From positions 1 to 39,985 of the forward strand of contig JACUUL010000014.1 in the NCBI GenBank assembly GCA_014859345.1: 39,985 nt of DNA, read 5' to 3'. This document shows, one piece after another, positions 1,531 through 39,817 of this stretch; within the stretch, counting starts at the first letter, position 1; every line of letters begins with the position of its first letter. A model generated the notes under the pieces. That model was not told the DNA's origin, ran no database searches, and saw only the letters and a list, made by a program, of their open reading frames with translations. Made by a program: the position numbers and the translations under genes. This DNA is from Thermoleophilia bacterium (lineage in GTDB: Bacteria > Actinomycetota > Thermoleophilia > BMS3ABIN01).

Positions 1531-1535
1531 TAAGG

Positions 1536-3089: not shown

Positions 3090-3168
3090 TCTTTGCAAAT
3101 ATCTTATCTCCACCGCAACAATTGTCCCCCCGGAATGACACCTAGCGGGCAGACTCTTATGAAAATTA

Positions 3169-4594: not shown

Positions 4595-5788
4595 ATGGAC
4601 CCGGTAGAGAGATCTCTACTGGTGGCTGCTTCCAGGCTGAATGCCGACTCAGCCCGTATGCAGCGCGTACAGAAACTGGCCCAGCGGGATTTAAACTGGG
4701 AAGCTCTAGTAAATCAAAGCACGATACACGGCACGGCTGGGATAATTTATCGAAACCTGACCGCTTCGGGGCATAGCGTGGACATTCCGGAAGCCGAACT
4801 GGAGCGCCTGAAAAAAATCTATTTGATGACGGCCGCCATGGGCCTGAGGCATCTTACGCAGCTGAGGGAGATAGCCCAGGAGCTGACTTCTCAGGGGATC
4901 GAAATTATAGTGCTCAAGGGCGCCGTCCTGGCGGAAAGAATATATGGCGACGTCGGCCTCAGGCCTTTTTCCGATGTTGATATTCTCGTGCGCGAAGAGG
5001 ACTGGCCCCGGATCTATGAGGTTTTAAAAAAAAAGGGCTGCCAGCCGCCGCCAGGAAAAGACTTCAGGGAGGTTCCGCCAAAGCTGATGAAATATGACGT
5101 CATGTCGCACATGCAATGGACGTCACCGCTCGGCACATGTCTCGAGTTTCAGTTCGATCTGCTTACCATGGGTGTGGGGATGCGCGATATCGGCGGGGTC
5201 TGGGACCGGAGCCGGAAGGCAGAGATACTCGGTTCCGAAGTCAGGGTCCTGGGTCCTGAGGACCAGCTGCTGCATCTGGTGATACATGCCAACAGGCACG
5301 GCTGCGCCAGGTTAAAGTGGCTGTCCGATATCTCCGAAAGCCTGTATCAAAACGGTCACGATTGGGACCTTCTGGTCCGGATAGCGCAAAGGGAAGGAAT
5401 AGCGGCCTGCTTCCATGCGACGATTGCCCATATTCAGAGGCTGTATGACACGAGGCTGGTGCCCGAGGAGGTCATGAGGAGGATCAAGCCGCGCTTCTAT
5501 AAGGAAGCAGTATGGAATCGGATATGGCCACAAGAGCAATTGGGCGAGTTTCAGGGAAGACACGAGGATGCCATCTGCTTTTATTTTTACCGCCCGTTAA
5601 GCGGATGGAACTTGCTGAATTTTGTGCTCACAGGAAGAGTCCGGGACAAGCTGGTCTACCAGCTGCGATGGATCTTTCCTTCGCTTAAATGGATGTCTGT
5701 CACGTACGGAAAACCGAGGTCTCTGGCGCTGCTCAAGTATTATCTCTGGAGATTGGCCGGATTTGCAGTGAAAAGAGATAAACATTGA
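4595..5788 (+). CDS. Nucleotidyltransferase-fold family protein (NTP_transf_5 type)
   Basis: This 397-residue protein matches the uncharacterised nucleotidyltransferase family (NTP_transf_5, PF14907). The diagnostic core is LKGA at 107-110, then RIYGDVGLRPFSDVDILV, where Asp127 and Asp129 form the D-x-D metal pair. An all-helical N-terminal third and a helical C-terminal half flank it. There is no signal peptide; it should be cytoplasmic. Members often accompany HprK-like kinases and PqqD-like proteins in peptide or exopolysaccharide loci, and such a set lies on the minus strand at 33543-35327. It follows the ligase gene by 40 bases on the same strand and may be the last gene of that transcript. 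The reaction is unknown; nucleotidyl transfer to a protein, peptide or sugar is only inference. Confidence 0.8.
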   Translation: MDPVERSLLVAASRLNADSARMQRVQKLAQRDLNWEALVNQSTIHGTAGIIYRNLTASGHSVDIPEAELERLKKIYLMTAAMGLRHLTQLREIAQELTSQGIEIIVLKGAVLAERIYGDVGLRPFSDVDILVREEDWPRIYEVLKKKGCQPPPGKDFREVPPKLMKYDVMSHMQWTSPLGTCLEFQFDLLTMGVGMRDIGGVWDRSRKAEILGSEVRVLGPEDQLLHLVIHANRHGCARLKWLSDISESLYQNGHDWDLLVRIAQREGIAACFHATIAHIQRLYDTRLVPEEVMRRIKPRFYKEAVWNRIWPQEQLGEFQGRHEDAICFYFYRPLSGWNLLNFVLTGRVRDKLVYQLRWIFPSLKWMSVTYGKPRSLALLKYYLWRLAGFAVKRDKH

Positions 5789-18067: not shown

Positions 18068-18077
18068 GGCCTGCGGA

Positions 18078-19634: not shown

Positions 19635-19653
19635 CGCCTGGGGATGGGTTGAT

Positions 19654-21354
19654 TTGTCGAAGGTACGCGTAATCGGTCTGGATGGAGCCACTTTTTCCAT
19701 CATCGATCATCTGGCCGCCGGAGGGCGCCTGCCGAATTTTTCACGGTTAATGGACAAGGGCAGGCGCGCCACCCTGCTTTCCACCGCGCCGCCGGTTACA
19801 TGGCCGGCCTGGGCCTCATTTTATACCGGCACCAATCCGGGCAAGACGGGAGCGGCCGATCTTTTCAGGTTCCGCCCCGGCACCTACAAGCTGGAGCCAA
19901 TGAATGCCGGCAACCTGCACGGCAGGCCCATCTGGTCGCTGGCCGGCGATGCCGGCAGGAGGGTGTGTGTCTACAACGTGCCGGTTACCTACCCGGCTGC
20001 GCCTGTCAATGGTATCCTCATCTCCGGCCTCGACGCCCCGAGCTTTAACCAGCACGCCATCTATCCACTGGAGTTTAAAGAGAAGCTCCTGTCGGCGGTC
20101 CCGGACTTTCAGATCAACTATCACAACGACGCCAAGTATCTGGTTAACCGCCATCCGGACCCTGTGCGGGAATGGATCCGGCGGCTGAAGGCATTTCTCG
20201 ACATGGAGATCAGGACCATCAATTACCTGATGGGCCTGGAGGACTGGGACCTCTTTGTCTCGGTGATCAGGTCGCCCGATATATTCCAGCATACCTTGTG
20301 GCGCGACGCCGAGAAGGCGATATCGGGCGAGGAGCTCAGCGCAGAAGAGCACCTGCGCGCAGAGGCGGTTTTTGAGTGCTATGAAGCCATCGACCGGCAG
20401 CTTGGAGAAACAGGCAGCGGCTGGGGGGTGGACGGGAATCTTGTCATCATGTCCGACCATGGCTTCGGCCGGCTGCGGGGCAGCGTCTGCCTGAACCGGG
20501 TGCTGGCCGAAGCCGGTCTGCTTAAATTTCACCCTTTGAGCGAGCGTAAGCGCACGCGTGAATTTCTAAGAAAGAAGCTGCAGGCCCGGATGTCCCACCA
20601 GACCCGGCAGAAGATCAAGCGGTTCCTGGGGAAAGAAAGGCCGGACGAAGGCTGGTCGACCTATGTGGACGTGCTCGTTTCCGATATCGACTGGGAGCAC
20701 ACTCGCGTCGCATCAATCGGCGGATTCGGATGCCTGTTCGTGAATATCAAAGGGCGCGATCCCCTGGGGACAGTATCCTCGGAAGAGGAGATGGAAAAGG
20801 TGATTGCCAAGGCCGAGGCGGCCATCTCCGGGCTCAGGGATCCCTGGGATGGGGAACCGATGGTCACCAGGTTCTACCGCAAGGAAGAGCTTTTTCACGG
20901 CCCTCTGGCCGCCGCCATGCCGGATCTGGTGGTTAATTTCAGGGACTGGTCTTACTGTCCGGTAATCGGCACCGCCACCGAGCTGGACGGAGGGCCGATC
21001 GTCAGGCCTCCGGTTCAGGACTGGAAGCAGCTTGCCCATACCGGAACCCACCGGCGGGAAGGCATCCTGATCCTGGCAGGCGCCGCCGGCATGGAAGGCG
21101 CCGAGCCGGACCAGGCGGACATGGTGGACGTGGCTCCGACCATAGCCGATCTCCTGGGCCTGCCCCGGGTTGAGGAGTGGGACGGCCGAAGCCTTCTGAA
21201 GGAGCCGGTTGAAGGGAACGAAGCCCAGCCGGACGAAGACAAACCTGCTGCCGACGGGGCTCCCCCCGCGAGCCGGCCGGAGGATCTGCCGGCATATTCG
21301 GAAGAGGACGAGGATGAAGTGCGAAAGCGCCTGGGCGACTTGGGATACCTTTAG
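19654..21354 (+). CDS. AlkP-superfamily phosphodiesterase (module B, copy 1)
   Basis: This 566-residue enzyme of the type I phosphodiesterase/nucleotide pyrophosphatase branch has the full metal set: IGLDGATF near residue 7-14, PPVTWPAWASFYTG with the presumed Thr nucleophile, SPDIFQH (Asp and His), SDHGFG, and GTHRREG near 465. It has no signal peptide. An insert of about 100 residues with a basic helix (ERKRTREFLRKK) sits in the middle. After a Pro/Glu-rich linker it ends in an acidic helix (EEDEDEVRKRLGDLGYL), a tail also seen at 22951 but missing at 208. The start is TTG, as in both other AlkP genes. It lies between two flippase genes, which suggests a substrate linked to lipid-carrier glycans; that is inference. 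Confidence 0.87.
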   Translation: MSKVRVIGLDGATFSIIDHLAAGGRLPNFSRLMDKGRRATLLSTAPPVTWPAWASFYTGTNPGKTGAADLFRFRPGTYKLEPMNAGNLHGRPIWSLAGDAGRRVCVYNVPVTYPAAPVNGILISGLDAPSFNQHAIYPLEFKEKLLSAVPDFQINYHNDAKYLVNRHPDPVREWIRRLKAFLDMEIRTINYLMGLEDWDLFVSVIRSPDIFQHTLWRDAEKAISGEELSAEEHLRAEAVFECYEAIDRQLGETGSGWGVDGNLVIMSDHGFGRLRGSVCLNRVLAEAGLLKFHPLSERKRTREFLRKKLQARMSHQTRQKIKRFLGKERPDEGWSTYVDVLVSDIDWEHTRVASIGGFGCLFVNIKGRDPLGTVSSEEEMEKVIAKAEAAISGLRDPWDGEPMVTRFYRKEELFHGPLAAAMPDLVVNFRDWSYCPVIGTATELDGGPIVRPPVQDWKQLAHTGTHRREGILILAGAAGMEGAEPDQADMVDVAPTIADLLGLPRVEEWDGRSLLKEPVEGNEAQPDEDKPAADGAPPASRPEDLPAYSEEDEDEVRKRLGDLGYL

Positions 21355-21380
21355 TTATATCTCTCTATTAGCGATGGCGG

Positions 21381-22934
21381 GTGGAGGAATCGGGCGAAAT
21401 CTCTAACGGGCCGCCGGGCCCGCAAGCAAAGACAGGTTATCTTCCCCATATAGCCAGGGGAGCGGCGATCAATTTCTCCGGCATCTTCGGCCGGGCGTTG
21501 ATCGTCTACGTTTATACCTTTATTCTGGCGCGGCTGATGGCTCCCGAACAGCTGGGCGAATTCTTCCTGATGTTCACCGTTATCAACCTGGTGGCGCTGG
21601 CTGCGGTGGCCGGCCTTGATTTCGGGATACTGCGCTACGTCGCCCTCTATGCTGGAGTCGGTGAGCTTGGGTCCGCCAAGAAGGTCGTAAAGGGGGCGGT
21701 TCTTTTAGGGCTGGCGACCAGCGTGACATTGATGATCATTCTTTGGTTGTCCGCTCCCGCCATTAACCGCATCCTGTTCGACGATAGCAATGTCGCCGTT
21801 AACGGAATTCGCATTTTTGCGATTGCCATCCCCCTGATGGTTTGCGCCCGGCTGTTCAACGCCACCACCCAGGGCATGCACCAGATGCGCTTCCAGGTCT
21901 ACGCCAACGACATAGGCGAGCAGGTATCCAAACTTCTGCTGGCGGGAACGGCGCTGATCCTGGGGGCGGGCCTGATCGGCGTGGTGCTGGCAAACGTGAC
22001 CGCGGTGGCTATCGGCTTGATGATGGCGGCGACTTTCGCGTTATGGGTGCTTTTCCGCCGGCCGGAGACGGCCGAGTCATCCGAGAAGCCGGTTGCCAAT
22101 CTCGTCAAGTATTCCGTGCCCCTGGCGGCAACGACCGTTTTGATGGCGCTTATCATGTGGATAGACACGCTGCTGCTCGGATATTTCTCGACCTCCACAA
22201 ATGTCGGCTATTACGCCGTGGCGGCCAAGGTGGCGCTGGTAAGCGCCAGGATACTGACCGCTTTTGCCGCCGTGTTCTCCCCGGTGATCTCCGATCTCTG
22301 GAACCGCCGCCAGGGAGAGGAGCTGAACATTCTTTTCAAGACGGTCAGCCGATGGATATTTACCATGACCTATCCGATATTCCTGGTGCTGGCGGTTTTC
22401 GCGGATCCCGTGTTGAGCATTTTCGGCGCTGATTTCGTGGTGGCGAGCACGGCCATGATCATGATTGCCTTCGGCCAGCTGGTAACCGCCAGCACCGGCA
22501 CCGCCAGCATGATGCTCCTGATGTCGGGGCGCTCGCGCCTGGAGCTGGTCAACGTGCTGATAATCCTGGTTTTTGACGTTATCATGTGTATATTGCTTAT
22601 TCCCCGCTTCGGACTGGCCGGGGCGGCCTTCGCCAATATGGCGTCTTTCTCCCTGGTGAACATGATCAGGGTGGTTGAGGTATGGTTTCTCATGCGGCTT
22701 CACGCTTTTGACCGATTTTACTTTAAGCCGCTGCTGTCAGGCGCCATGGGCGCCGCTGTGGTATTCGTGGCGGGCAGGTTTCTGCTGGCTGACGGGCAGC
22801 CGGTCCGGATAGCCGCGCTGGCAGCCGTCATGGTTATCCTTTATGTAGGCTCGATGGCGCTCATGGGATTCAATGAAAGGGATAAAAAAATATTAAACAT
22901 GGTCAAGACGCGCCTGGCGAGGGCGGAGGCCTGA
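21381..22934 (+). CDS. Polysaccharide flippase (Wzx-like), copy 3
   Basis: This 517-residue MOP/Wzx-type flippase has AGLDFGILRYVALYAG, NATTQGMHQMRFQV with NDIGEQVSK, and a C-terminal GFNERDKK. Its order and signatures match the flippases at 1536 and 18078. The GTG start at 21381 reads GTG GAG GAA; an ATG 7 bases upstream opens only a ten-codon frame that stops at once. It lies 26 bases after the previous AlkP gene and 16 before the next one. The repeating flippase-AlkP-flippase-AlkP order indicates a tandem duplication of the pair followed by divergence. Confidence 0.88.
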   Translation: MEESGEISNGPPGPQAKTGYLPHIARGAAINFSGIFGRALIVYVYTFILARLMAPEQLGEFFLMFTVINLVALAAVAGLDFGILRYVALYAGVGELGSAKKVVKGAVLLGLATSVTLMIILWLSAPAINRILFDDSNVAVNGIRIFAIAIPLMVCARLFNATTQGMHQMRFQVYANDIGEQVSKLLLAGTALILGAGLIGVVLANVTAVAIGLMMAATFALWVLFRRPETAESSEKPVANLVKYSVPLAATTVLMALIMWIDTLLLGYFSTSTNVGYYAVAAKVALVSARILTAFAAVFSPVISDLWNRRQGEELNILFKTVSRWIFTMTYPIFLVLAVFADPVLSIFGADFVVASTAMIMIAFGQLVTASTGTASMMLLMSGRSRLELVNVLIILVFDVIMCILLIPRFGLAGAAFANMASFSLVNMIRVVEVWFLMRLHAFDRFYFKPLLSGAMGAAVVFVAGRFLLADGQPVRIAALAAVMVILYVGSMALMGFNERDKKILNMVKTRLARAEA

Positions 22935-22950
22935 AGCGGAAAGGAACCGG

Positions 22951-24639
22951 TTGTCAAAACTTTTGGTGATAGGACTCGATGGCGGCACCTTTACCGTTAT
23001 TGATTACCTGATCGGGAAGAACAGGCTGCCCAATTTCGCCCGCCTGATTGAATCCGGGAGCCACGCGACCCTGATGTCGACCCTGCCTCCGATCACCCCG
23101 GCCGCCTGGTCTTCTTTCTTCACCGGCACAAACCCGGGCAAACACGGTTCCGTGGGCTTTTTCCGTTTCCGGGAAGGCACATACCAGCTCGAGCCGATGA
23201 ACGCCGCCAATGTCCGGGGAGCTTCCGTCTGGGGCCTGGTCTCCGGGGTGGGCAAACGCGTGTGCGTTTACGATGTGCCGGTCACATATCCCGCTTATGA
23301 GGTCAACGGAGTCATGATTTCCGGGATGGATGCGCCCCATCTGGACGAAAAATCAACATTTCCGCGGACATTCAGGGAGGAATTGCTTGAGTCCGTGCCG
23401 GATTTCGCCATATCCTCCTCCGTGGATTCCCCGTATCTCCTGAGCCATCATCCCGATCCTGTCGGCGAGTGCATAAGGCAGCTCAGGGCGCACCTGGACG
23501 TCGAGCTGAGGACGGTCCGCTATCTGATGGAGAAAGAGGACTGGGACATGCTGGTGGCTGTCATCAGGTCTCCCGACAGCTTTCAGCATATCTTCTGGGA
23601 TTCGGCGGAGAAGGTGATGAGGGCGGATCCTGCGGCGGATGATGAGGACCGGCGGCGGGCCGAGTCGGTTTTTTTATGTTATGAGGTCCTGGACAGCGAG
23701 CTGGGCGAGAGGTGGATGCGATGGGGAAAGGACCGGAACCTGCTGATCATGTCCGATCACGGTTTCGGCCGCCTCGAGAAAGAGATCTGCCTCAACAGGG
23801 TGCTGGCCGAGGCGGGTCTGCTTCATTTCCATCCGGTACGAACCAGGCAGAAAGCCAGAAAATACCTCATGGGGAAGCTTCAGGCCCATCTTCCGGTGAG
23901 GACCCGGCGAGGGGTGAGGAAGCTGCTGGGCCGGGACGTAAGCGGCAGGCGCTGGGAGATCTTTGTCGATGCGCTGATCTCGGATATCGACTTCAGCCGC
24001 ACCCGGATCTTTTCCATCTCGCAGTTCGGCTGCCTGTTCGTGAATACGAAAGGGCGCTATCCTTCCGGAACAGTCGCGGGAGAGATGGAGAGGCGGCTGG
24101 TGATCGACGAAACCGTTGCCGCGCTGGAGGAGCTGGCCGATCCCGGGGACGGCCTGCCGGTCCTGTCGCGGTTTGACCGCAAAGAGGAGATATACAGCGG
24201 GCCGTTGATGGAGGAGATGCCCGACCTGGTGATAAACATGAGGGAATATGCCTACCGCGGCATCCACAGCACTCAGCTCGAGCTGGCGGAGCCGGGCATC
24301 ATCAGGGAGCCGATGAAAAAGTGGGGGCCACTGGCACATACCGGCGCCCATCGGCGCGAGGGCATCCTGGTCATGCACGGGCCGGACATCCTGCCCGCGG
24401 ATCTGGGTCAGGTGCAGATGGTGGACGTGGCCCCGACCATCGGCGCGCTTCTGGACCTTCCATATCCCGAGGATTGGGACGGTAGGGCCCTGACAGAAGC
24501 TTTCAGGGATAAAAAAGGACAACCGCGTGCCGCCGAGGCAATATCCGCTGCCCAGGAGCCCGGTCCGGGCCCCTCAGTCTATACGGAAGAAGAGGAAGAC
24601 GAGGTGCGCAGGCGCCTTGAAAATCTTGGTTATCTGTAG
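22951..24639 (+). CDS. AlkP-superfamily phosphodiesterase (module B, copy 2)
   Basis: This 562-residue enzyme is the closest relative of the one at 19654. It carries IGLDGGTF near residue 7-14, PPITPAAWSSFFTGTNPG, SPDSFQH, SDHGFG and GAHRREG, giving the full two-metal set. Where the 19654 copy has TWPAW at the nucleophile region, this one has TPAAW, so the Thr is kept. It lacks a signal peptide and ends in the same acidic tail (EEEEDEVRRRLENLGYL) after a Pro/Ala-rich linker. The TTG start has AAAGGAA upstream at good spacing. The GT4 gene follows after 24 bases. Cytoplasmic location and phosphodiester chemistry follow from the family; the substrate is unknown. Confidence 0.87.
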   Translation: MSKLLVIGLDGGTFTVIDYLIGKNRLPNFARLIESGSHATLMSTLPPITPAAWSSFFTGTNPGKHGSVGFFRFREGTYQLEPMNAANVRGASVWGLVSGVGKRVCVYDVPVTYPAYEVNGVMISGMDAPHLDEKSTFPRTFREELLESVPDFAISSSVDSPYLLSHHPDPVGECIRQLRAHLDVELRTVRYLMEKEDWDMLVAVIRSPDSFQHIFWDSAEKVMRADPAADDEDRRRAESVFLCYEVLDSELGERWMRWGKDRNLLIMSDHGFGRLEKEICLNRVLAEAGLLHFHPVRTRQKARKYLMGKLQAHLPVRTRRGVRKLLGRDVSGRRWEIFVDALISDIDFSRTRIFSISQFGCLFVNTKGRYPSGTVAGEMERRLVIDETVAALEELADPGDGLPVLSRFDRKEEIYSGPLMEEMPDLVINMREYAYRGIHSTQLELAEPGIIREPMKKWGPLAHTGAHRREGILVMHGPDILPADLGQVQMVDVAPTIGALLDLPYPEDWDGRALTEAFRDKKGQPRAAEAISAAQEPGPGPSVYTEEEEDEVRRRLENLGYL

Positions 24640-27516: not shown

Positions 27517-28653
27517 TTAAGTGGCGGAAGGCGACGGCCGTCCCCAGAGCGGCCAGAGGCGGCGGTAAATTCTCATGTTCGAAAGAGCCATCTCGCAGCC
27601 CCGGCAGCGGCTCCTGGGAACAGGTGTCTGGGTACGGTGGATGTTCAGGGCAATATCGTTTAGGCGGCTTTTTTCTTTTGAGTACCAGATCTGCTCAAAC
27701 GAGGATTCGGCAAGGTTTCCCAGAACCTCCCGGCTGACACAGCAATACGTGATGTCGCCGTTGGCAAGGACAAAGGGGAATAGCCAGCCCGCGAAACACG
27801 GGGCGGGAATGCCACCGTCGGCCCGCAGTTTAACCAGCTGACGGAAAGATTCGATGTTCTGGGCGATGCCGTGGCTTTCCGCCACCTGCGCGGCTATGGC
27901 AAACGAACTCTCAAGCCTTTCATAATCTTCGTCACTCAGGGAGTATTTTTCCGTTTGCGGGCCCGTGTCAACAGGCCGGAAACAGATACTGGCGGCTCCC
28001 ACATCTGCCGCCAGCCTCGCCATCTCCGGAACTTTACGGAAATTCACGTTGCTGATTACGTTCGAGAGCGTCACCCGGGGGTTATCTGTTCCCCGTCTCC
28101 GCTTGTATTCATCGAGTTTTTTGAGCCCGGTGATGATTTGGTCAAAGACAGTATTGTCCTGATTTGCGTGGACTAGCCCGTATTCTTCGCGCGACCCGGC
28201 GTTAAGGCTGATGCTGAGATCGTCCAGCCCCGCGTCAACAAGCTCCCTTGACAGCTCTTCATCGAGCAGGGAACCGTTTGTGGTTATCCAGACGCTCATC
28301 TTTTTCTGCCTGGCAAAGACAACCGCGTCCACAATATGCCTGTGCAGGAGGGGTTCGCCGATGCCCGCCAGGCCGATCTGCCTGGCGCCGGTGGATTTCA
28401 TGCCCTCGACCAGTGTTTTATAGATGTCAAGGTCCATGACGGTGGCCTTGTTCTTCTTCTCGGCATGGTAGCGCCGGGAGAATTCATCGGCGCCCCGCCC
28501 TTCGAACTCCGGGGAATGCTCCCAGCACATGATGCACCGGTAGTTACAGGCGTCGACGATGCTGACCTGTACCGAGTGGGGGCCGGTAAATACCTTGCGG
28601 GCCAGAATTCCCGTGATGATTTTGGAGCTATGCCGGATTTCGCGGAAATCCAT
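27517..28653 (-). CDS. Radical SAM/SPASM-domain protein
   Basis: This 378-residue enzyme has the radical SAM motif C-x3-C-x2-C at Cys36, Cys40 and Cys43 (ACNYRCIMCW), GIGEPLL near 95-101, and a C-terminal SPASM-like domain. Its extra cysteines are in CFAGW, ITYCCVS and SRCRGCE and should bind auxiliary Fe-S clusters. SPASM proteins modify peptides, proteins or small molecules. A small hairpin (CCCGT/ACGGG, 28662-28673) lies just upstream of the ATG, and no ribosome site is visible there. The GT-C-like gene follows. A PqqD-like peptide-binding protein lies 5 kb away on the same strand, but no precursor peptide is next to this gene. The substrate is unknown. Confidence 0.87.
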   Translation of the reverse strand: MDFREIRHSSKIITGILARKVFTGPHSVQVSIVDACNYRCIMCWEHSPEFEGRGADEFSRRYHAEKKNKATVMDLDIYKTLVEGMKSTGARQIGLAGIGEPLLHRHIVDAVVFARQKKMSVWITTNGSLLDEELSRELVDAGLDDLSISLNAGSREEYGLVHANQDNTVFDQIITGLKKLDEYKRRRGTDNPRVTLSNVISNVNFRKVPEMARLAADVGAASICFRPVDTGPQTEKYSLSDEDYERLESSFAIAAQVAESHGIAQNIESFRQLVKLRADGGIPAPCFAGWLFPFVLANGDITYCCVSREVLGNLAESSFEQIWYSKEKSRLNDIALNIHRTQTPVPRSRCRGCEMALSNMRIYRRLWPLWGRPSPSAT

Positions 28654-28776: not shown

Positions 28777-29796
28777 GTGGCCATCCCTATGGACGATGGT
28801 CGACTCTGCTGCTACCATTTTAATATGAGCAATAAAACCAATTCAATCAGGAATAATGCTATTGCTGCGCGTGAGCCTGATGTATCCATAATCATTGTCA
28901 ACTGGAATCTGAAAGATTATCTTCTCCGGTGCCTCGAGAGTCTTCAGCAGGGCGCGAGCGGTGTATCCACGGAAACGATAATCATCGACAACGCCTCTTC
29001 TGACGGAAGCGCGGAGGCTGTGCGGGAGCGGTATCCCGCCGCGAAGGTCTTGCAAAATGACACAAACGAGGGCTTTTCCCGTGCCAACAACCAGGCGATG
29101 GAAATCGCCAGGGGCCGCTATTTTTTCCTGTTGAACAACGATACGTTTCTTTACGAGCCGGCCCTGAAGAAGCTGGTCGAATTCATGGATGCGCATCCGG
29201 AAGCAGGCATTTGCGGCCCGAGGGTGCTTAACGAGGATGGCACTCTTCAGTTCAGGTCAAAGGGCCGGTATCCCTCAATCGTCCGGGCCCTGGGACACTT
29301 CTTTCTTCCCGAGTCGCTTCAGAAACGCAGCGGCAACCGCACCCTGGGTTTTTACGACTTCGGGGAAAACGGCAAGGAGCGCCGGATGGATTGGGTCAGC
29401 GGATGCGCCTTGATGGTACGGAGCGAAGTCGTAAACCGGATAGGCAAGCTGGACTCCGATATGTTCATGTATTGTGAAGATGTCGACTGGTGCTTCCGCG
29501 CCGCCAGGGCCGGATGGTCAACGTATTACGTGCCTTCCGCGCGGGTTCTTCACTACGGCGGCATGAGCATGAGCCGGCAGACCGGCAGAGCCGTGGCGGG
29601 GCACAAGACTGGCCTGTCCGGCTACTACGGCAAGTATCATGGCTCCGCTGCGACGGCTCTTTTCCGCTCGATACTTTGGCTGGGTTACGGCGTTCAGGCT
29701 TGCGGCTGGCTGGCCGCGTTCCTGCGAGGCAACGATAGGGACGCCGGCAAGATAAAGAGGATGCTGAGCGGATTGCGTCCAGGTTCGGACAAGTGA
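28777..29796 (+). CDS. GT2 family glycosyltransferase (rhamnosyltransferase-like)
   Basis: This 339-residue GT-A fold transferase of family GT2 (WbbL-like) opens with VSIIIVNWNLKDYL. It has IIDNASSDGS, the metal-site equivalent LLNNDT, and a C-terminal EDVDWCFRAARAGW with a later His-Tyr-Gly-Gly. Such enzymes add one sugar, often rhamnose, to lipid-linked intermediates; rhamnose is inference. The start is uncertain: GTG 28777 has a GGAG 11 bases upstream, while ATG 28825 would give a more usual short N-terminus and has no visible site. The C-terminus has a hydrophobic stretch that may touch the membrane. The next gene overlaps its stop as GTGA. Confidence 0.85.
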   Translation: MAIPMDDGRLCCYHFNMSNKTNSIRNNAIAAREPDVSIIIVNWNLKDYLLRCLESLQQGASGVSTETIIIDNASSDGSAEAVRERYPAAKVLQNDTNEGFSRANNQAMEIARGRYFFLLNNDTFLYEPALKKLVEFMDAHPEAGICGPRVLNEDGTLQFRSKGRYPSIVRALGHFFLPESLQKRSGNRTLGFYDFGENGKERRMDWVSGCALMVRSEVVNRIGKLDSDMFMYCEDVDWCFRAARAGWSTYYVPSARVLHYGGMSMSRQTGRAVAGHKTGLSGYYGKYHGSAATALFRSILWLGYGVQACGWLAAFLRGNDRDAGKIKRMLSGLRPGSDK

Positions 29797-30953
29797 GGAT
29801 CGCTCTCTATTATCCCTGGATCTACCTGCGGTCCGGCATCGAACGCATGATGTTGGAACTGGTTAGCCGGAGCCGCCATGACTGGGTAATCTTCACCAGC
29901 CATTACAATCCCGATCAGACCTACCCCGAATTCAGGAAGCTGCCGGTGGTCGAGCTTTCCCGGGTGCCCGTGGACCGGGGCTATTTCCCGGTGGGAAAGG
30001 CGGCGATGACCATCTTCCGGGAAAAGATAAACCTGAAGGATTTTGACGCGCTGGTGGTCTCATCCGAAGGCCTGGGAGATTTCATAACCTTCCGCAATCA
30101 TGATGTGCCGGTCATCTGTTATTGTCATACGCCCCTTAAGGTGATTCACGACCACTTTGCCCGCCGCCGGTACCTGAACGAGAACAAGCGAATGAAAATT
30201 CCTTTTTTCCTGTACGCGGGGGTGTTCAGGGCCGCCGACTGGCTGGCCTGGCGCAATTATCAATACATTTTCTGTAACAGCCAGGAAGTTCGCCGCAGAA
30301 TACTCAAGGCAGGGCTGGCTCCGGAGGGGAAGATCGACGTATTGTCTCCCGGCCTGGACACCAGCGTCATGCAACCGACCTGGAATTATCAGAAATATTT
30401 CATGGTCGTGGGACGGATCAAATGGTGGAAGAATCTGGAACTGGCTTTGCAATCATTCATTGAATTCAAGCGGCGCTATCCCCGGTTTGCAGAATTCAAG
30501 TTGATAATCGCCGGTCAGGTAGACCGCAAGAGCGAGGCCTACTTGCGCAAGCTGAAACGGATAGCGGCCGGACGGGATGACATAATCTTCAGGCGCGATC
30601 CCGCTGAGGAAGAGCTGATGGAGATCTACCGGAATGGTTACAGCCTGATGTTTCCCAGCCTTAACGAAGACTGGGGCATGACCCTGCTGGAGGCTATGGG
30701 GTTTGGAAAGCCGGTGATCTCCGTAAACCAGGGAGGGCCCGTCGAGAGCGTGATCGATTCAGAGACGGGTTACCTGGTTGAAGCAGCCCCGGGAGCCTTT
30801 GCGGACGCCATGGCCCTGCTGGCTGAGGATCAAAATCTCACCCGCAAGCTGGGCGAAGCCGCGGCCCTCCATGTACAGAAATATGACTGGGAGCATTTCG
30901 TGGACCGGTTTGACTCTTATCTCAGCTCGTTGGGCCCCCGGCAGGCACCCTGA
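29793..30953 (+). CDS. GT4 glycosyltransferase
   Basis: This 386-residue GT-B enzyme, family GT4, starts MRIALYYPWIYLRSGIERM. The donor domain has FMVVGRIKWWKNLE near 201-214 and the acidic motif EDWGMTLLEAMGFG, then NQGGPVESV. This resembles mannosyl- and related transferases, but donor assignment is not safe. The GTG start overlaps the GT2 stop by four bases, so the two should be coupled and act in the same pathway. Its last 32 bases overlap the convergent methyltransferase gene on the other strand, so the two transcripts would be antisense at their ends. It appears intact. Confidence 0.87.
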   Translation: MRIALYYPWIYLRSGIERMMLELVSRSRHDWVIFTSHYNPDQTYPEFRKLPVVELSRVPVDRGYFPVGKAAMTIFREKINLKDFDALVVSSEGLGDFITFRNHDVPVICYCHTPLKVIHDHFARRRYLNENKRMKIPFFLYAGVFRAADWLAWRNYQYIFCNSQEVRRRILKAGLAPEGKIDVLSPGLDTSVMQPTWNYQKYFMVVGRIKWWKNLELALQSFIEFKRRYPRFAEFKLIIAGQVDRKSEAYLRKLKRIAAGRDDIIFRRDPAEEELMEIYRNGYSLMFPSLNEDWGMTLLEAMGFGKPVISVNQGGPVESVIDSETGYLVEAAPGAFADAMALLAEDQNLTRKLGEAAALHVQKYDWEHFVDRFDSYLSSLGPRQAP

Positions 30954-31635
30954 CCATAGCCGTAATCGAGCTGCAAAAACGCGGAAACAGCGCCCTCAGG
31001 AATCCTCTTTCGACGGGCCCCAGCCAGCCCTTTTTCAGGAGAAAAAGCCTTGCCCGGCGGGGCACCGGCAGCGCCACAGAGTCATGGAAGAACTCGGCTA
31101 TCTCAAGGCCGCAACCCAGCTCTAAAAAGGTTTTGAAATGAGACCAGTCCCAACTGTACAGATGAAGGCGGTTGACGTAATCGACTCCAAGCCGTCCAAT
31201 CGACCTTAAGATGTAGGGGGAGTAATAGGGATTGGGCACCGAGATCAACATCAATCCCCTGGAGACGGAGGCCGCCCGCCTGATTATATCGCGGGGATTT
31301 TCGATGTGCTCGATCACGTGGGACAACACCACGCAGTCAAATCTTTCATCGAAGCTCTCATTTGAAATCCGGCCCGCGTCCAGCTCGAGGACGGTCCCGA
31401 AGCGGCTCGACAATCTGACGCATTCCTCATCCGCGTCCACTCCATGGACCCGGTAACCGCGGGCGGCGGCTTTTTGCATCAGTTCCCCCCTGCCGCAGCC
31501 GATATCGAGCAGGCTTCCGCCGGGACGGACGTATTTGCCAACCGCGCTCAGAAGCGTGTCGTAGATAGACCCGGTCTCGAACTCTTCGATCGGATCCAGG
31601 CCCGAATAGGGAAGATGTCTGCCGTCTCCGCTCAT
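30922..31635 (-). CDS. Class I SAM-dependent methyltransferase
   Basis: This 237-residue methyltransferase has motif I LLDIGCGRG at 42-50, the acidic GVDADE at 65-70 and DCVVLSHVIEHIENP as motif IV. It is of the Methyltransf_11/23 type, which methylates small molecules, sugars or lipids; the target is unknown. The C-terminal part has a basic stretch (VPRRARLFLLKK). It starts directly at the base after the stop of the DUF2079 gene (TAA then ATG), so it is the last gene of the five-gene minus-strand operon. Its end overlaps the convergent GT4 gene by 32 bases. A role in capping or decorating glycan is plausible. Confidence 0.88.
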   Translation of the reverse strand: MSGDGRHLPYSGLDPIEEFETGSIYDTLLSAVGKYVRPGGSLLDIGCGRGELMQKAAARGYRVHGVDADEECVRLSSRFGTVLELDAGRISNESFDERFDCVVLSHVIEHIENPRDIIRRAASVSRGLMLISVPNPYYSPYILRSIGRLGVDYVNRLHLYSWDWSHFKTFLELGCGLEIAEFFHDSVALPVPRRARLFLLKKGWLGPVERGFLRALFPRFCSSITAMVRVPAGGPTS

Positions 31636-33546
31636 TTAATGTGTATCAGGTTGCGCCTGGTCAAGACCCGATCTGACATAAAGCTCGAGGTCGTCACGGG
31701 CGAAGACTTTTTCGAATTCCTGTGAGCCATCGAGATAATTGACAACCTCGACCACGCCCTGGAAGTACTGGCTGTCGCCGCTGCGCGCCGGGATACGGCT
31801 GTCCAGGAGGATGTAATCTTCGCTCAGCACAAACTCGCCCCGGAGGTCGATCTGGTACGCGATCTGGTGGAACCCGTGCGCTTTCTGATCAGGGCGGGCG
31901 TACAGAAGCATGTATTCCGGAAGCCTGACGGCGGCGTCGCCGGGAATCATGTCCAGAGCCTCCAGGGCGGCCTCGTAATTGTACCTTGGCTGGTAAAGAC
32001 CCGGATTGAACCAGGTATGGAAGGCCGAGGTTCCCAAAAAGAACAAAAAGATACCCACCAAAGCCGCGGCGAGCCCTTTTTCCAGACCCAGGCGCCTTTG
32101 GGCAATCCCGTCCAGCCTGGCGAGTCCCAGAATATACGCCGCCATGAGCGTGGGCACCGCCAGGAGCGCCATGAAGTTCACCAGGGTGGTTGTATCCTGG
32201 AGCATGAGCTCCGCTACGCCTGGCACCGCCAGCAAGGTGGCGCCGGAAAGCAACGGCACACCGAGACCGAAAGTCATGAGCAAACCATAGGCAACCCCTA
32301 TGTGGGAGGGAGTGGCAAACGCTGCCGACACGAGTCTCCAGGGCCGGAACAAGACAGTCTTAAGGATATCCGGTCCACTGGCGCCCAGGGCCGAATATCG
32401 CACCGCTACCCTGACGCTGGTTTCAGCCGGGCTCAGCCGCGGCAAAAGTAAAGCGCCCATGGCCCCGAACCAGGCCAGTCCGCTAGCCAGGGGAGCGGCA
32501 ATCCATTTCCAGGAACGGCGCAAAAACAGGGCATATATGCCGAAGAAAGCGACGAAAAATCCCATGTCTTCCCTCACCAGAAGCAGCAGCAGAGCCGCTA
32601 TGGCGAATCCTCCCGCCCGTTTTTTATCAAAGAAATAAAAAGATGTCAGAAAAAGCACGGGGACGAAACGCAGTTCCGAGAAGTCGGAACGGCCCGGCTG
32701 CGCGGTCATTATCGGATGGAAAAGGAGCATGGCGGCCATGAGCAGGCTCAGGGACGGAGAAAACCGGCGCCTGGCTATCAGGTACGCGGGGACCGCAGCC
32801 AGCGCCAGGGCGACATCGGAAATAAACAGCAGAAGACGGTAATCCGGCCAGAGGCGGAAAATCGGCATGATCAGAATCATGATGGAATTCATGTGAGCGC
32901 CGAAAACCGAGGCCCCCTCGCTGAGTATCAGGTTGGTGTACATAAAGCCGCGCTCGTCAAAGCCATTCAGCATGGCTTCGCGGAACACAGCGCTGTTGAT
33001 GGTGGTGACGTGCATGTACTGGTTCTTGAGAATATCCAAAGGCAGGAAGACGGCCAGCCAGATGATCATCATGGCTCCGAGAACGTAGGCCGGATATCTT
33101 TCTGTCTTTGCCAGTATGCCGCATTCCCTGCTGCCCAGATAGAAGCGCAAGAGCACCACAAGCAAAGCCAGCGACCACAGAAGCAGGAGAACAGAAGAAA
33201 AGCGGGCGCCCAGCGGGGGCAACTCGACCGAATCACCTTCGAGGCCGCTGCGGTAAAGGAGATAGGGAAAATAGGAAATCAGGGGAGCCAGGCTGGCGGC
33301 AAACACGAACCAGAGAGGCCGCTCAGCCTTGTCAGGCCGTAACCGGGTGGAAAGGAAAACCGTCAACGCCGCGAGAAGAAGCCAGAGAAATGCCGCCAGC
33401 AGGCCTGATAAAAGCGACAACGAAACGGCGTCCGCCGGACTTTTCCCCATAAGTGCCGGTCCCAGGACTGCGCCGCCGGCAAACCCGGCCGCGAAAACAA
33501 GGCCTGCCGCCAGGACGCGGCTATGGGAGAAGGCGGATGAGTTCAA
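31636..33546 (-). CDS. DUF2079-family polytopic membrane protein
   Basis: This 636-residue protein has about 12 or more membrane helices and an extracytoplasmic C-terminal part of about 130 residues. It matches the DUF2079 pattern: an early loop with a DIL...N start (INSAVFREAM), FGAHMNSIMILIMPIF, AVPAYLIARRRF and a late FHTWFNPGLYQPRYN. The family is uncharacterised but GT-C-like in layout, so lipid-linked sugar transfer is a reasonable inference. It overlaps the B2-like gene by 4 bases and abuts the methyltransferase gene. It is one of only two large membrane proteins on the minus strand here; the other, at 25898, may be a distant relative. Confidence 0.82.
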   Translation of the reverse strand: MNSSAFSHSRVLAAGLVFAAGFAGGAVLGPALMGKSPADAVSLSLLSGLLAAFLWLLLAALTVFLSTRLRPDKAERPLWFVFAASLAPLISYFPYLLYRSGLEGDSVELPPLGARFSSVLLLLWSLALLVVLLRFYLGSRECGILAKTERYPAYVLGAMMIIWLAVFLPLDILKNQYMHVTTINSAVFREAMLNGFDERGFMYTNLILSEGASVFGAHMNSIMILIMPIFRLWPDYRLLLFISDVALALAAVPAYLIARRRFSPSLSLLMAAMLLFHPIMTAQPGRSDFSELRFVPVLFLTSFYFFDKKRAGGFAIAALLLLLVREDMGFFVAFFGIYALFLRRSWKWIAAPLASGLAWFGAMGALLLPRLSPAETSVRVAVRYSALGASGPDILKTVLFRPWRLVSAAFATPSHIGVAYGLLMTFGLGVPLLSGATLLAVPGVAELMLQDTTTLVNFMALLAVPTLMAAYILGLARLDGIAQRRLGLEKGLAAALVGIFLFFLGTSAFHTWFNPGLYQPRYNYEAALEALDMIPGDAAVRLPEYMLLYARPDQKAHGFHQIAYQIDLRGEFVLSEDYILLDSRIPARSGDSQYFQGVVEVVNYLDGSQEFEKVFARDDLELYVRSGLDQAQPDTH

Positions 33547-33986
33547 TGGGGGTAGGAATAGGTCTTTGCGAAAGAGTTCTGCTGATGCTCATCCTCCAGG
33601 AACGGCGCACCGTCCAGCACCAGCCAGCTGTGCCCGGTGATGTCTGCCCGATGGCCGTCAGTCCTGCGAACACCGAAATGGATCTCCACAGGCCAGCCCT
33701 GAAGCCTGAGGAACCTGAACAGAACCAGCGATCGCATCAGGCATTTGCCATAGCGTTGGAAGGGACGGTACTTGAGCAGTGAGTCCGCGAACCCTGCCGT
33801 CTTTCTGAGCTTGGCCTCGTCACGGGCACCGGGCGCCACTCCCGGATCTATCCCCGCCAGCAGGTCCGGGAGGCTCTGGCGCCTTATCCGCCGGGGAAGG
33901 AATATCAGCATGAGGAAAATCTGAAGGAACAGCCAGAGATCACTCGGGTTCCTGAGCCGCCTCATCATCCTGAGGAGTTTCGACAA
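33543..33986 (-). CDS. Lasso-peptide B2-like transglutaminase-fold cysteine protease
   Basis: This 147-residue protein of the transglutaminase-fold family (PF13471 type) is named for the lasso-peptide maturation protein B2, which cleaves a leader peptide. The catalytic Cys82 lies in YGKCLMRSL and His119 in TGHSWLVLDG, with Asp125 a candidate third residue. The N-terminus has a hydrophobic helix near 16-30 that may tether it to the membrane. Its start overlaps the PqqD-like gene by 47 bases and its end overlaps the DUF2079 gene by 4. There is no asparagine-synthetase-like lasso cyclase in the window. I infer a peptide- or protein-processing role in this operon, target unknown. Confidence 0.83.
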   Translation of the reverse strand: MSKLLRMMRRLRNPSDLWLFLQIFLMLIFLPRRIRRQSLPDLLAGIDPGVAPGARDEAKLRKTAGFADSLLKYRPFQRYGKCLMRSLVLFRFLRLQGWPVEIHFGVRRTDGHRADITGHSWLVLDGAPFLEDEHQQNSFAKTYSYPH

Positions 33987-34254
33987 CTTTAACCAGACCT
34001 TCTTTGGCCAACTGCCCGGCCAGCTCTATTATGTCCTTTTCGGCTTCTTCTCTCGAGATCTCGAATTCTTCCGTGATCTCCCCGGCCAGATCGCCGATAG
34101 TCTTGCTGCCGTCGGTGATCGACCAGAGCCGCGCTCCAACCTTGTTGAGGCTGTAGTAGTCGCCACGCTGCACGTGCAGGAGAACGGCATCATCTCCCAT
34201 GGACGTGAACAGCACTTCACTGTCTTTCACAAGATAATGACCTTTTTCAATCAT
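33940..34254 (-). CDS. PqqD-like peptide-binding protein (RRE/B1 type)
   Basis: This 104-residue small protein has the PqqD/RRE winged-helix layout: an N-terminal beta hairpin (VLLHVQRGDYYSLNKVGARLW), then three helices with TIGDLAGEITEEF and a C-terminal LAKEGLV. PqqD-type domains bind leader peptides and bring them to modifying enzymes. The acidic C-terminus (DDEAAQEPE) lies in the 47-base region shared with the B2-like gene. Its start overlaps the kinase stop by 4 bases. The context matches lasso-peptide B1 and HPr-rel-A PqqD-like proteins. No precursor peptide is visible within the operon or in the 117-base upstream gap. Confidence 0.85.
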   Translation of the reverse strand: MIEKGHYLVKDSEVLFTSMGDDAVLLHVQRGDYYSLNKVGARLWSITDGSKTIGDLAGEITEEFEISREEAEKDIIELAGQLAKEGLVKVVETPQDDEAAQEPE

Positions 34255-35327
34255 TCCTTTTCCTCGCCAATTGCTTTACCGGAGCGGTTCAACAAACTTC
34301 CGATCACCCGCTCCAGCTCTTCCTGGTTTCTGCCGGCGTACAGGCGGTAGCAATGCGCCTGGCCGGCAAGCCGTGACAATATCTCGAAATGCCTGGCGGT
34401 GGTGGACGGGTCCAGGAAGAAAAAGCCGTAGCGCATGGACAGTGCCAGGGCCTCGGTCCGGGACATGGGCTCCACCACCGTGGCATCAGAATCAGCGATC
34501 TCGGGAAAAACCAGCACTCTCGGTATTGACGATTCTACCACGCATCCGGGATAAAGCTCATCTATGGAGAAGGATGATTTTCCCCTGAGCTCGTTGAAAC
34601 TGAAATTTTTTACCTTCGATAGCTCCGGCAGTAACTGAATGGTTTCTTCTTTGACGTTGATTTCCTCCGGGAAAGACAATACCCGCACGCGGTCCTCTTC
34701 CTGCTGAAGACGCAAAAAGACAGTGTCGTCACTAAGGAGCCCGTAGCCGCCGCGCACCAGATTTAGGGTTAGCGTCGATTTGCCGCTGCCGCTTTTTCCC
34801 AGGAATAAAAAACCCTTGTCATCCCGGGAAAGTCCCGCGGCGTGCAGCGGAAACAGGCCAGACTCCTTGACCAGTTGCGCCCAGAGAGGATAGAAAAAAA
34901 GATTGGATATGAGCCAGTCGGAAAAAAGAAGCTCCTGGCCAGCAAAGCCTACGGCGGTTTTTTGGCCGATGTCGGCAACCACCCGGGCCCGGTCATCGAC
35001 TTTCAGGTAGCGTTCCTGGCCGGCATGGAAGATCTTGAGCATCCCCCAGTCGTAAAGCAGGGAGGCTTCCGCCGGAACCGGGGCCATGTCCTCAACGAGG
35101 TCATCTACCGCGAACAGGTGGACGGTGATATCGGTTTTACTGGAATCCTCGACCCTGAAAGGCCGCAGGAGCTTGCTTACCGCGCCGGCCATGGTATCGG
35201 AGTTTGTCAGCAATAGCGTCGTGACTCCGTGCACGTTGAACGTCCGCGCCCGCAGCCTGTCCTGCGAGTGCTGCTGGCCCAGCCGCACGAGGTCGGCAAC
35301 GGCGCCGGATGTGGAGTCAGGAGTCAT
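34251..35327 (-). CDS. HprK-like kinase (HPr-rel-A/lasso kinase type)
   Basis: This 358-residue protein has a C-terminal HPr-kinase-like ATP-binding domain: Walker A GKSGSGKST at 177-185 after FPLHAAGLS, then LLSDDTVF at 198-204. The N-terminal half is a domain I do not recognise. Relatives include HprK-related kinase A of PqqD-associated exopolysaccharide systems and the kinase that phosphorylates the lasso peptide paeninodin. It is therefore a likely Ser/Thr or peptide kinase, but it could use another substrate. It is the first gene of the operon, with ATG 35327 and no clear ribosome site. It is divergent from hemW across 117 bases. Confidence 0.83.
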   Translation of the reverse strand: MTPDSTSGAVADLVRLGQQHSQDRLRARTFNVHGVTTLLLTNSDTMAGAVSKLLRPFRVEDSSKTDITVHLFAVDDLVEDMAPVPAEASLLYDWGMLKIFHAGQERYLKVDDRARVVADIGQKTAVGFAGQELLFSDWLISNLFFYPLWAQLVKESGLFPLHAAGLSRDDKGFLFLGKSGSGKSTLTLNLVRGGYGLLSDDTVFLRLQQEEDRVRVLSFPEEINVKEETIQLLPELSKVKNFSFNELRGKSSFSIDELYPGCVVESSIPRVLVFPEIADSDATVVEPMSRTEALALSMRYGFFFLDPSTTARHFEILSRLAGQAHCYRLYAGRNQEELERVIGSLLNRSGKAIGEEKE

Positions 35328-37759: not shown

Positions 37760-39817
37760 ATGAAAAGAGAGGGGCTGAAAAGCAGGCTTGCGCTCATGCT
37801 TAAAGGGCAATATCTGTGGCATGTTGGCAGACTATGTCAGAAGAGAGAGACGCGGATTCCCAAATATCTCGGTCTGGCGGCGCTTCTTTTTGTCTCGGTT
37901 ATCGGCTACGTGGTGTTCGGTCCTTCTGAGACCCAGTGGCCAGTAATCACGGAAGACGCGGTTAACGGCCGGATCACGTTTGAGAATGAAAATGTCAAGC
38001 TAGTCTGGCATTACAAGGCGCTGGCCTCGGAAAGCTACAATCAGGGCGGGGGCAATCTATACGAGCATTATTACAAACCGCTGGATCCGGAGATGACAAG
38101 AAATCTTGTCTCGTTTGTCTCGTCTTCCGGTTGGGGCAATGGCAGGTCGACATCAATCTGGGCCGGAATCGGCGGTGTGGGCAATACCACTCTGTACGCT
38201 ACGGACAGCCCCCCGTCTCCATCCGACACAAATTCTTTCGCTGACATTATCTCCGATAACAACCTTAGCGGTTTGCTGGAATCCCACTCCTCGCAGGTCA
38301 ATGCCGAGGGTAATGCCGAGCTCAGGTTCACGTACAGAGTCAGGAACCAGTCGACAGGCAAAGAGTGGTACCGGGCGATTAAAACCTGGACGGTCAAACA
38401 GGATGGCTCGATACACCTGAATGTAGATTGGACCGTGCTGGAGTCCGGATATTTTTCAGAAATCGCGATTAGAAGCGACTGGAGCTATTTTGCGGGGTGG
38501 AACCGCTTCAGCAAATACGGAAAGGACTGGTGGCCGCAGGGCAGCCCCAGTTATCTTCTAGGAGCCTACGGCATCGATACGAAGACTGCGGAATGTTGGG
38601 ACTCTCTTAACACTTTTCATCCTGACTGGGTGTCCTTTACAGGTTCGGAAGTTGCCCCCACGCTGGTGATGTCGGCGGATAATAACGGTCAGGGATTCGC
38701 AGGCAGCGGCTCCTATCAACTGGGAACGGAACTCTTCGGCAGCATCGCAAATCCTACCATGGAACAGTGCTCAATGAGGCCAAATCAAAGCGTGGGCGCT
38801 CATGGTATGGCGTGGATGGCCTGGTGGGGCGGCAATCCTCCCAAGGGTGACCGGTACAAATGGGTCGACGCCGGCACTCAGTGGAGTGACTCCTATAAAA
38901 TAAATCTCGTGGAGGGGCCGGCCGCGAGCCCCGACATATCCGGGATCGTATCGGAGGAGTTGGGCGATCGGATAAGGATTGCCTGGCATACGGATACAGC
39001 GGCCGATTCCCAGGTGCAAGTGAACAACTCCGACAACCCTTGGGCATGGACCGCGATATCCAGTTCATCAGAGAAGGTTACGGATCACGAGCTGGTCCTG
39101 CTGGATCTTCCCCCGGATCAGGTTTACAGGTATCGTGTGCGCAGCGTCGATGATGCCGGTCAGGTCGCAGTAAGCGGCAATTACTTTTTCAATACCCCCA
39201 AGTCCGGCGAAGTTCCGCAGCCCCCCATTATTGACGGCATCGACAGTGAGCCAAGTAACGATGGGGCAGCAATCAGCTGGACCACGGACATCGAATCAAA
39301 TTCAGAAGTCCAGGTAATGGACGCCGAAGGATCGGTTGTCGCCACAGCCAGGGATGCCGCTTTGGTTCGGAATCATCGGCTGCCGGTAGCGGGATTGCAA
39401 CAAGGAACCACATATTTTTTCAAAATAATCAGCACCGATGCTTCAAATAATGCCAGTGAGAGCACCGGCCATAGCTTTACTACTATAAACGGGCCTGCTT
39501 TCGATCTTGTGATTTCTCTGGATAATGCTTATTGGAGCACATTCGCGGATTTCAAGGATCGCCGGCTGTCGGTGGTTTTCTCCATCGTCAATAAGGGACC
39601 CGCGATGGCCAGAACGGTTACCATTACCTCTGCGGTCGCCAGCAGGCATGCTTACGCCATCGATGAATTTCCCGTAACTCTGGGAGACCTGGATGCCGGC
39701 GGCGCCACCACATTTACGCTGTTGTTTTATGTACCGAATGGAATCAACAAGTTCGAGACGTGGTTGTATGGCTTTGCCGTGACGCCCACCGGAATCAGGG
39801 TCGATAGCGGGCAGTGA
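37760..39817 (+). CDS. Membrane-anchored paralogue of the riboswitch-controlled secreted protein
   Basis: This 685-residue protein has a basic N-terminus and one hydrophobic segment near 36-54 without a clear cleavage site, so a signal anchor is likely. Residues about 70-385 are the same unknown domain as in the protein at 13117, with very high identity by eye (for example WHYK.LASESYNQGGGNLYE and WSYFAGWNRFSKYGKDW). Both conserved Cys are kept. Two fibronectin type III domains follow (about 390-480 and 492-580; the first copy has one), then the CARDB/DUF11-like end. ATG 37760 has TAGGTTAAG upstream. There is no riboswitch here. The gene lies divergently beside the epimerase gene. A role as a surface or matrix protein is inference. 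Confidence 0.78.
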   Translation: MKREGLKSRLALMLKGQYLWHVGRLCQKRETRIPKYLGLAALLFVSVIGYVVFGPSETQWPVITEDAVNGRITFENENVKLVWHYKALASESYNQGGGNLYEHYYKPLDPEMTRNLVSFVSSSGWGNGRSTSIWAGIGGVGNTTLYATDSPPSPSDTNSFADIISDNNLSGLLESHSSQVNAEGNAELRFTYRVRNQSTGKEWYRAIKTWTVKQDGSIHLNVDWTVLESGYFSEIAIRSDWSYFAGWNRFSKYGKDWWPQGSPSYLLGAYGIDTKTAECWDSLNTFHPDWVSFTGSEVAPTLVMSADNNGQGFAGSGSYQLGTELFGSIANPTMEQCSMRPNQSVGAHGMAWMAWWGGNPPKGDRYKWVDAGTQWSDSYKINLVEGPAASPDISGIVSEELGDRIRIAWHTDTAADSQVQVNNSDNPWAWTAISSSSEKVTDHELVLLDLPPDQVYRYRVRSVDDAGQVAVSGNYFFNTPKSGEVPQPPIIDGIDSEPSNDGAAISWTTDIESNSEVQVMDAEGSVVATARDAALVRNHRLPVAGLQQGTTYFFKIISTDASNNASESTGHSFTTINGPAFDLVISLDNAYWSTFADFKDRRLSVVFSIVNKGPAMARTVTITSAVASRHAYAIDEFPVTLGDLDAGGATTFTLLFYVPNGINKFETWLYGFAVTPTGIRVDSGQ

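Follow-up and report, generated by a model that had tools for sequence, protein, structure and literature searches.

Lasso-peptide clusters with phosphorylated or phosphoglycosylated products, such as those for paeninodin and pseudomycoidin, contain a kinase (K), a PqqD-like recognition element for ribosomally synthesized and post-translationally modified peptides (RiPPs; RiPP recognition element, RRE; B1), the peptidase B2, and an N-type nucleotidyltransferase (PMC9266682, PMC8498205), and the His-Lys-Asp-Asp motif of lasso kinases has been reported to be essential (PMC9266682). In pseudomycoidin, a serine is phosphorylated by the kinase, and the hexoses carried on that phosphate require the nucleotidyltransferase (PMC9266682, PMC8498205). 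The HPr-rel-A systems, described at the level of annotation (NCBIfam TIGR04352/TIGR04353 plus a nucleotidyltransferase), bring together an adjacent PqqD-like RRE, HprK-related kinase, and nucleotidyltransferase without a cyclase. Lasso-type RREs without a cyclase are not unusual per se: of the roughly 8,000 discrete lasso-type RREs in a 2020 survey, about half were missing the leader peptidase and the cyclase, and the survey left them aside as potential false positives or members of uncharacterised classes (PMC7470986). Here, we describe an operon to which phosphoglycosylated lasso clusters and HPr-rel-A systems are the nearest known kinds. It lies on a contig of 39,985 bases (C81; JACUUL010000014.1) of a Thermoleophilia bacterium, analyzed in its entirety and referred to below as the window, within a draft genome of 2.08 Mb in 122 contigs that is rated 100% complete (GCA_014859345.1). 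On the minus strand of the window, the genes for an HprK-like kinase, a PqqD/RRE protein, a B2-type cysteine peptidase, and a DUF2079 membrane protein form a single operon.

The operon shares with the phosphorylated lasso clusters the K, B1, and B2 components, an N-type nucleotidyltransferase, and the kinase motif, but differs in having no cyclase, precursor, or exporter and in its B2, which branches outside the lasso ones. From HPr-rel-A, it differs by the addition of B2 and DUF2079, by its position in a polysaccharide locus, and by scores far under the family cut-offs; membership in HPr-rel-A was accordingly rejected (HprK_rel_A, 64.5 of 200 bits; PqqD_rel_X, 17 of 35 bits). We consider the chances about even (probability near 0.5) that this is a lasso-type peptide-handling cassette working without a cyclase, which would carry out RRE-guided phosphorylation and cleavage, and possibly phosphoglycosylation, of a peptide or protein for surface-glycan assembly.

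Composition and conservation of the operon

The three proteins match the families to which a first-pass annotation of the window, made from its sequence, had assigned them (Table 1), and the genome encodes a single B2 and a single PqqD. The kinase and PqqD genes overlap by 4 nt, PqqD and B2 by at most 47 nt, according to the start assigned, and B2 and DUF2079 by 4 nt. The overlaps by which that annotation had joined the trio to further genes thus extend to DUF2079, but not to the methyltransferase gene, which abuts DUF2079 with zero overlap. In the kinase, H162, K183, D200, and D201 correspond to the lasso-kinase His-Lys-Asp-Asp motif and are kept in relatives. The best NCBIfam match of PqqD is lasso_PqqD_Bac, yet under its own cut-off, and B2 passes the lasso-B2 cut-off (NF033537). 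Cys82, His119, and Trp121 of B2 are invariant over every class compared, lasso and non-lasso, and Glu131 characterizes the branch formed by the host family (f1) and the distant family f16, being fixed in the host family and present in some lasso B2s. The NTP_transf_5 nucleotidyltransferase (NTP5) retains the DxD motif of Pol-beta-type nucleotidyltransferases. Judged from their sequences, the catalytic residues of HprK, B2, and NTP5 are intact. A structure search with B2 returned no significant matches, the weak ones being to transglutaminase-like enzymes, and a sequence search of solved structures yielded nothing for B2 and distant HprKs for the kinase. For the AlphaFold model of DUF2079 (predicted local distance difference test score, pLDDT, 62), the top Foldseek matches were the oligosaccharyltransferase (OST)/STT3, PglB, AftA, and ArnT (E 2.4e-4 to 0.018); at ~11-14% identity to these transferases of the GT-C glycosyltransferase fold class, DUF2079 may tentatively be regarded as an OST/ArnT-like GT-C transferase.

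A genome scan recovered five loci with B2 at 59-66% identity, in Thermoleophilia, Actinomycetes, and unclassified metagenome-assembled genomes, and a B2 profile search detected the protein in 16 of the 19 host-family genomes versus 1 of ~280 others of the class. The order HprK-PqqD-B2 is kept in 14 family loci from seven genera, a recurrence far beyond chance. In relatives, one flank of the locus consists of hemW and housekeeping neighbours (hrcA, dnaJ), and the opposite flank of glycosyltransferases, Wzx, Wzy, Wzz, or phosphodiesterases. With B2 family-wide and beside polysaccharide genes, the operon is not a broken lasso cluster. The first-pass annotation had proposed following the co-occurrence of the trio, DUF2079, the methyltransferase, and NTP5: beyond the trio, DUF2079 directly follows B2 in most family loci and NTP5 is attached in four relatives, but the methyltransferase is no regular partner, with an orthologue in place at three family loci only.

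Family-wide presence, always in a polysaccharide locus, would also suit a regulator, in which the kinase phosphorylates polysaccharide-assembly proteins and thereby switches export or chain length, the RRE serving as an adaptor and B2 as a processing enzyme; protein kinases do occur among HprK relatives, and no precursor was found. For such a switch, however, a dedicated RRE, B2, and NTP5 would be superfluous, and the pairing of HprK with NTP5 in unrelated contexts points to chemistry on the phosphate, so that we regard regulation as unlikely.

NTP5 closes the operon in two relatives (G088 and G077; loci L045 and L046), and HprK-PqqD-NTP5 are contiguous in two others (G030 and G048; L099 and L108), the B2-DUF2079 genes of G030 being separated from them by roughly 20 kb. 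The association thus resembles that in HPr-rel-A, although in the window, the PF14907 gene is 29 kb off. Two NTP5 subfamilies, ~26% identical, comprise the operon-attached type and the window's type, the latter having Wzy and Wzz genes around it in several relatives. Where a clear NTP5 is present in the family, it shares a contig with the trio, no more than ~30 kb away, in 9 of 11 genomes. Outside the family, a Sphingomonas plasmid encodes in a row proteins named by NCBI as HPr-rel-A PqqD, HprK-related kinase A, and nucleotidyltransferase; a Crinalium plasmid has PqqD-NTP5-HprK adjoining glycosyltransferases; and a Streptomyces plasmid (L117) carries an HprK-like and NTP5 pair, in which no RRE was found, within an apparent small-molecule cluster with phosphatases, kinases, and an epimerase. 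Because all three plasmids pair HprK with a nucleotidyltransferase, the two enzymes constitute a recurring pair.

The Streptomyces pair, together with the relative in which B2 went undetected (G048), raises the option that the substrate is a small molecule, sugar, or lipid, with RRE and B2 as accessories. This, too, we consider improbable, given that RREs are peptide binders, that the RRE adjoins HprK in every host-family operon examined, and that B2 retains its catalytic residues.

Cyclase, precursor, and exporter

In line with the first-pass annotation, neither an asparagine synthetase nor an ATP-binding cassette (ABC) exporter is present among the scanned window genes, and the open reading frames (ORFs) of at least 20 aa in the gaps, all of which were listed, are short and featureless, none being a plausible precursor. 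That annotation had named a cyclase and precursor just outside the window as the mark of an ordinary lasso cluster; neither appeared near the operon in relatives, within stretches of a few kb up to ~10 kb per side. Two genes on the opposite strand lie between the operon and the nearest radical S-adenosylmethionine (SAM)/SPASM gene, so that the operon contains no radical SAM maturase of the kind expected for a SynChlorMet/GeoRSP-type RiPP. Across the whole genome, a strict lasso leader motif (YxxP...G...T) gave two matches versus four in a control, and a looser motif five versus six, in searches that would overlook a divergent leader. Searches of the other family genomes likewise stayed at the control level; the matches that recurred were parts of long proteins with housekeeping or transport roles and, in G088, of one unrelated radical SAM cluster. 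In G088, a separate PqqD and radical SAM/SPASM cluster (L211:1-1860) has two tandem Cys-rich precursors (EEAVLANCKC...) with Ser at the end.

The two strong asparagine synthetase matches of the genome are both on contig C92, one with Cys2 (MCGIAG) and one with Ser2 (MSGIAG). In the tree, both cluster with ordinary AsnB, apart from most lasso-locus cyclases (95/95), and no lasso-type cyclase was found in the genome. The AsnBs of two presumed lasso loci (L158 and L191) fall on the ordinary side as well and may themselves be plain AsnB. The NCBI lasso-cyclase cut-off (525 bits) was abandoned as a sole criterion, since a sister family has, in a presumed lasso locus, an AsnB-like protein that likewise scores far under it (124.8 bits). 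A conserved AsnB-like pair, Cys2 and Ser2 (the latter with a probably dead glutaminase), is located amid B12-type radical SAM genes and a SPASM protein gene (L007:5656-11451).

An ordinary lasso cluster was rejected because no cyclase, precursor, or exporter was found, with the AsnB and B2 trees also against it. A split system, in which precursor and cyclase are encoded elsewhere in the genome and the operon performs leader removal and phosphorylation, could account for a B2 above the NCBI lasso-B2 cut-off, an RRE closest to lasso RREs, and the family-wide conservation, on a different contig, of the probably glutaminase-dead Ser2 AsnB; loci of family f23, which encode a lasso-like precursor but no cyclase beside it, fall among the lasso clusters. 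Yet the genome's AsnB genes side with the ordinary type, its matches to the full lasso leader motif stay at the control level, and the f1/f16 B2s form a branch of their own, which together make a split system very unlikely.

Among 40 further B2-domain loci from a survey of the phylum, an AsnB-like gene is nearby in 17 and absent in 23, although some of these 23 are on short contigs that may end before a cyclase gene; 21 of the 23 contain HprK. In f26 (11 loci) and f40, a radical SAM/SPASM gene comes after B2-PqqD-HprK, and most of the loci also encode a 50-54 aa peptide (consensus ...YEKPxMxVxxINRFFFGGCQxxWPNCYSxYLFxPGxARCR); NTP5 is nearby in f26, and no lasso cyclase lies within the stretches examined. 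These loci and those of f29 resemble the window in the clustered trio, in an HprK from the same side of the tree, and, in f26, in NTP5 and Wzz-type genes nearby. What sets them apart from it is a radical SAM enzyme encoded next to HprK or PqqD, together with a precursor of 50-60 aa that carries a YxxP leader. The f23 loci encode, between B2 and HprK, a peptide of 64 aa whose leader is lasso-like, and they also have NTP5, an ABC transporter, Wzy, and Wzz; because f23 nests with lasso loci in trees, it is best read as lasso-derived. In f16, a PqqD-B2-HprK-NTP5 operon adjoins Wzz and a UDP-sugar dehydrogenase (L106), other B2-containing sets lie beside sugar epimerase or glycosyltransferase genes (L180, L188), and neither cyclase nor precursor was found in these loci.

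The B2s of f1 and f16 share a single branch of their tree (91/97), separate from lasso and radical-SAM B2s. The HprK tree places f1 and f16 with the radical-SAM type on one side and lasso, f23, and proteobacterial HPr-rel-A on the other (80/88), the deep nodes of both trees lacking strong support. The window's trio is thus akin to a second cyclase-less branch. Clear YxxP precursors in cyclase-less relatives suggest that a lasso cyclase is not required for RRE/B2/HprK sets to act on peptides.

Table 1. Coordinates of the operon genes, of neighbouring and associated genes in the window, and of candidate precursors in related loci
Feature	Position	Strand	Evidence or remark
HprK-like peptide/protein Ser kinase (K), predicted	34251..35327	-	Hpr_kinase_C 27 bits; HprK_rel_A 64.5 bits (cut-off 200)
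PqqD-family RiPP recognition element (B1-like)	33940..34254	-	PF05402 66 bits, E=3e-18; lasso_PqqD_Bac 62.9 bits (cut-off 80)
B2-type transglutaminase-like cysteine peptidase	33543..33986	-	Transglut_core3 PF13471 65.5 bits, E=5e-18; NF033537 50.4 bits (cut-off 33)
DUF2079 polytopic membrane protein, probable GT-C glycosyl/glycan transferase	31636..33546	-	PF09852 119 bits; ~11 hydrophobic segments
SAM methyltransferase (MetW/UbiG-like), optional operon member	30922..31635	-	Methyltransf_23 E=2e-18
NTP_transf_5 nucleotidyltransferase, candidate distant system member	4595..5788	+	PF14907 174 bits; DxD D127/D129 and D245 conserved
GT2 and GT4 glycosyltransferases, conserved flank	28777..30953	+	same pair facing the operon end in most relatives
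Radical SAM/SPASM protein, conserved neighbour, own transcription unit	27517..28653	-	
Candidate RiPP precursors, YxxP leader and conserved Cys	L173:1762-1914, L175:10795-10947, L168:7055-7207, L185:10368-10532, L184:5815-5976		
Precursor with lasso-like leader and CNPSDGCVAPGLGSQ core, PqqD-B2-HprK-NTP5 loci	L162:4904-5098, L163:8255-8449, L176:8420-8698		no cyclase within examined stretch

Possible function in surface-glycan assembly

In the cyclase-independent cassette that we favor, the PqqD-like domain would bind a ribosomal peptide or protein by its leader or tag, the HprK-like kinase would phosphorylate a serine, perhaps a C-terminal one by analogy with PadeK/ThcoK, and B2 would remove the leader. 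NTP_transf_5 might then add a sugar or nucleotide onto the phosphate, as proposed for PsmN in pseudomycoidin, and the product could serve the surrounding surface-polysaccharide or glycoconjugate locus, for example as an acceptor or anchor for the OST-like DUF2079. We infer the existence and nature of such a substrate, the order of the reactions, and the links to DUF2079 and to the distant NTP5 gene. The first-pass annotation had suggested that the trio may process or phosphorylate a polysaccharide-export protein or peptide rather than making a lasso peptide. Its second part agrees with the relatives' operons, which have no cyclase or precursor nearby, keep their position in a polysaccharide locus, have NTP5 attached in four cases, and frequently include the GT-C-like DUF2079; for the first part, no substrate was found. 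One locus of the window (208-4554, 16628-24639) contains a type I phosphodiesterase, a Wzx-like flippase, and a Wzy-like polymerase as repeated modules.

Several observations weigh against this cassette. In none of the family genomes did the surroundings of the operon yield a substrate peptide, the conserved small ORFs there being only PqqD, B2, HIT/YqeY genes, and shadow ORFs, and leader-motif matches across the genome stay at the control level. Three loci of genus g2 (L040, L042, L044) lack DUF2079 after B2, and the DUF2079 model is of low confidence. HprK-PqqD-NTP5 in G048 comes with no detected B2, a clear NTP5 is present in just 11 of the 19 family genomes, and that of the window is both distant from the operon and of the other subfamily than the operon-attached type. 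Finally, the family is a single clade, so co-distribution within it has little independent weight.

Secreted proteins of the family share a ~110-residue C-terminal domain with weak Pfam matches only (alignment A3; YWxSYxDY...LSVDF...VPxGVxxFxT...YP), encoded in the window at 14470-14814 and 39470-39814, which looks like a family-specific sorting or anchoring domain. At least 11 copies occur in each of the 19 family genomes versus 1 of 230 others, this single outside genome being possibly contamination. A second HprK homologue (L090:1534-2559; L091-L096), ~38% identical and with the motif intact, is present in seven of seven family genomes searched; its neighbours are C-terminal-domain proteins, a small lipoprotein gene (conserved C-terminus GWDxGGIxIxVPPxP), and, in some, a nearby uppP, with no PqqD or B2 adjoining. 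The substrates could accordingly be these secreted proteins, processed for covalent anchoring to glycan: most g2 genomes, and one locus each of g3, g4, and g6, have a domain gene immediately after the operon, and the second HprK is located among such genes. We nevertheless give this identification a low probability, because clade-specific genes co-occur by descent; moreover, neither a C-terminal Ser nor a leader motif is conserved in the domain, and several trio loci have no copy of it nearby. Quite unlikely, too, is a protein-glycan linking machine, in which the kinase and nucleotidyltransferase, guided by the RRE, would make phospho- or phosphoglycosyl-Ser on a secreted protein or a ribosomal peptide, B2 would trim it, and the OST-like DUF2079 would join the product to surface polysaccharide, with the C-terminal-domain proteins as clients; if true, RiPP enzymes would have been recruited into cell-envelope assembly.

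Nearly the whole of an uncultured family keeps this gene set at a fixed place by a polysaccharide locus, with active sites intact and a membrane transferase as a frequent partner, providing a concrete, testable locus for what cyclase-less RRE/HprK/NTP5 systems do. The cyclase-less radical SAM loci, with their conserved Cys-containing precursors, offer a further, directly testable peptide family. For the host family, the locus points to peptide-modifying enzymes acting in cell-surface assembly.

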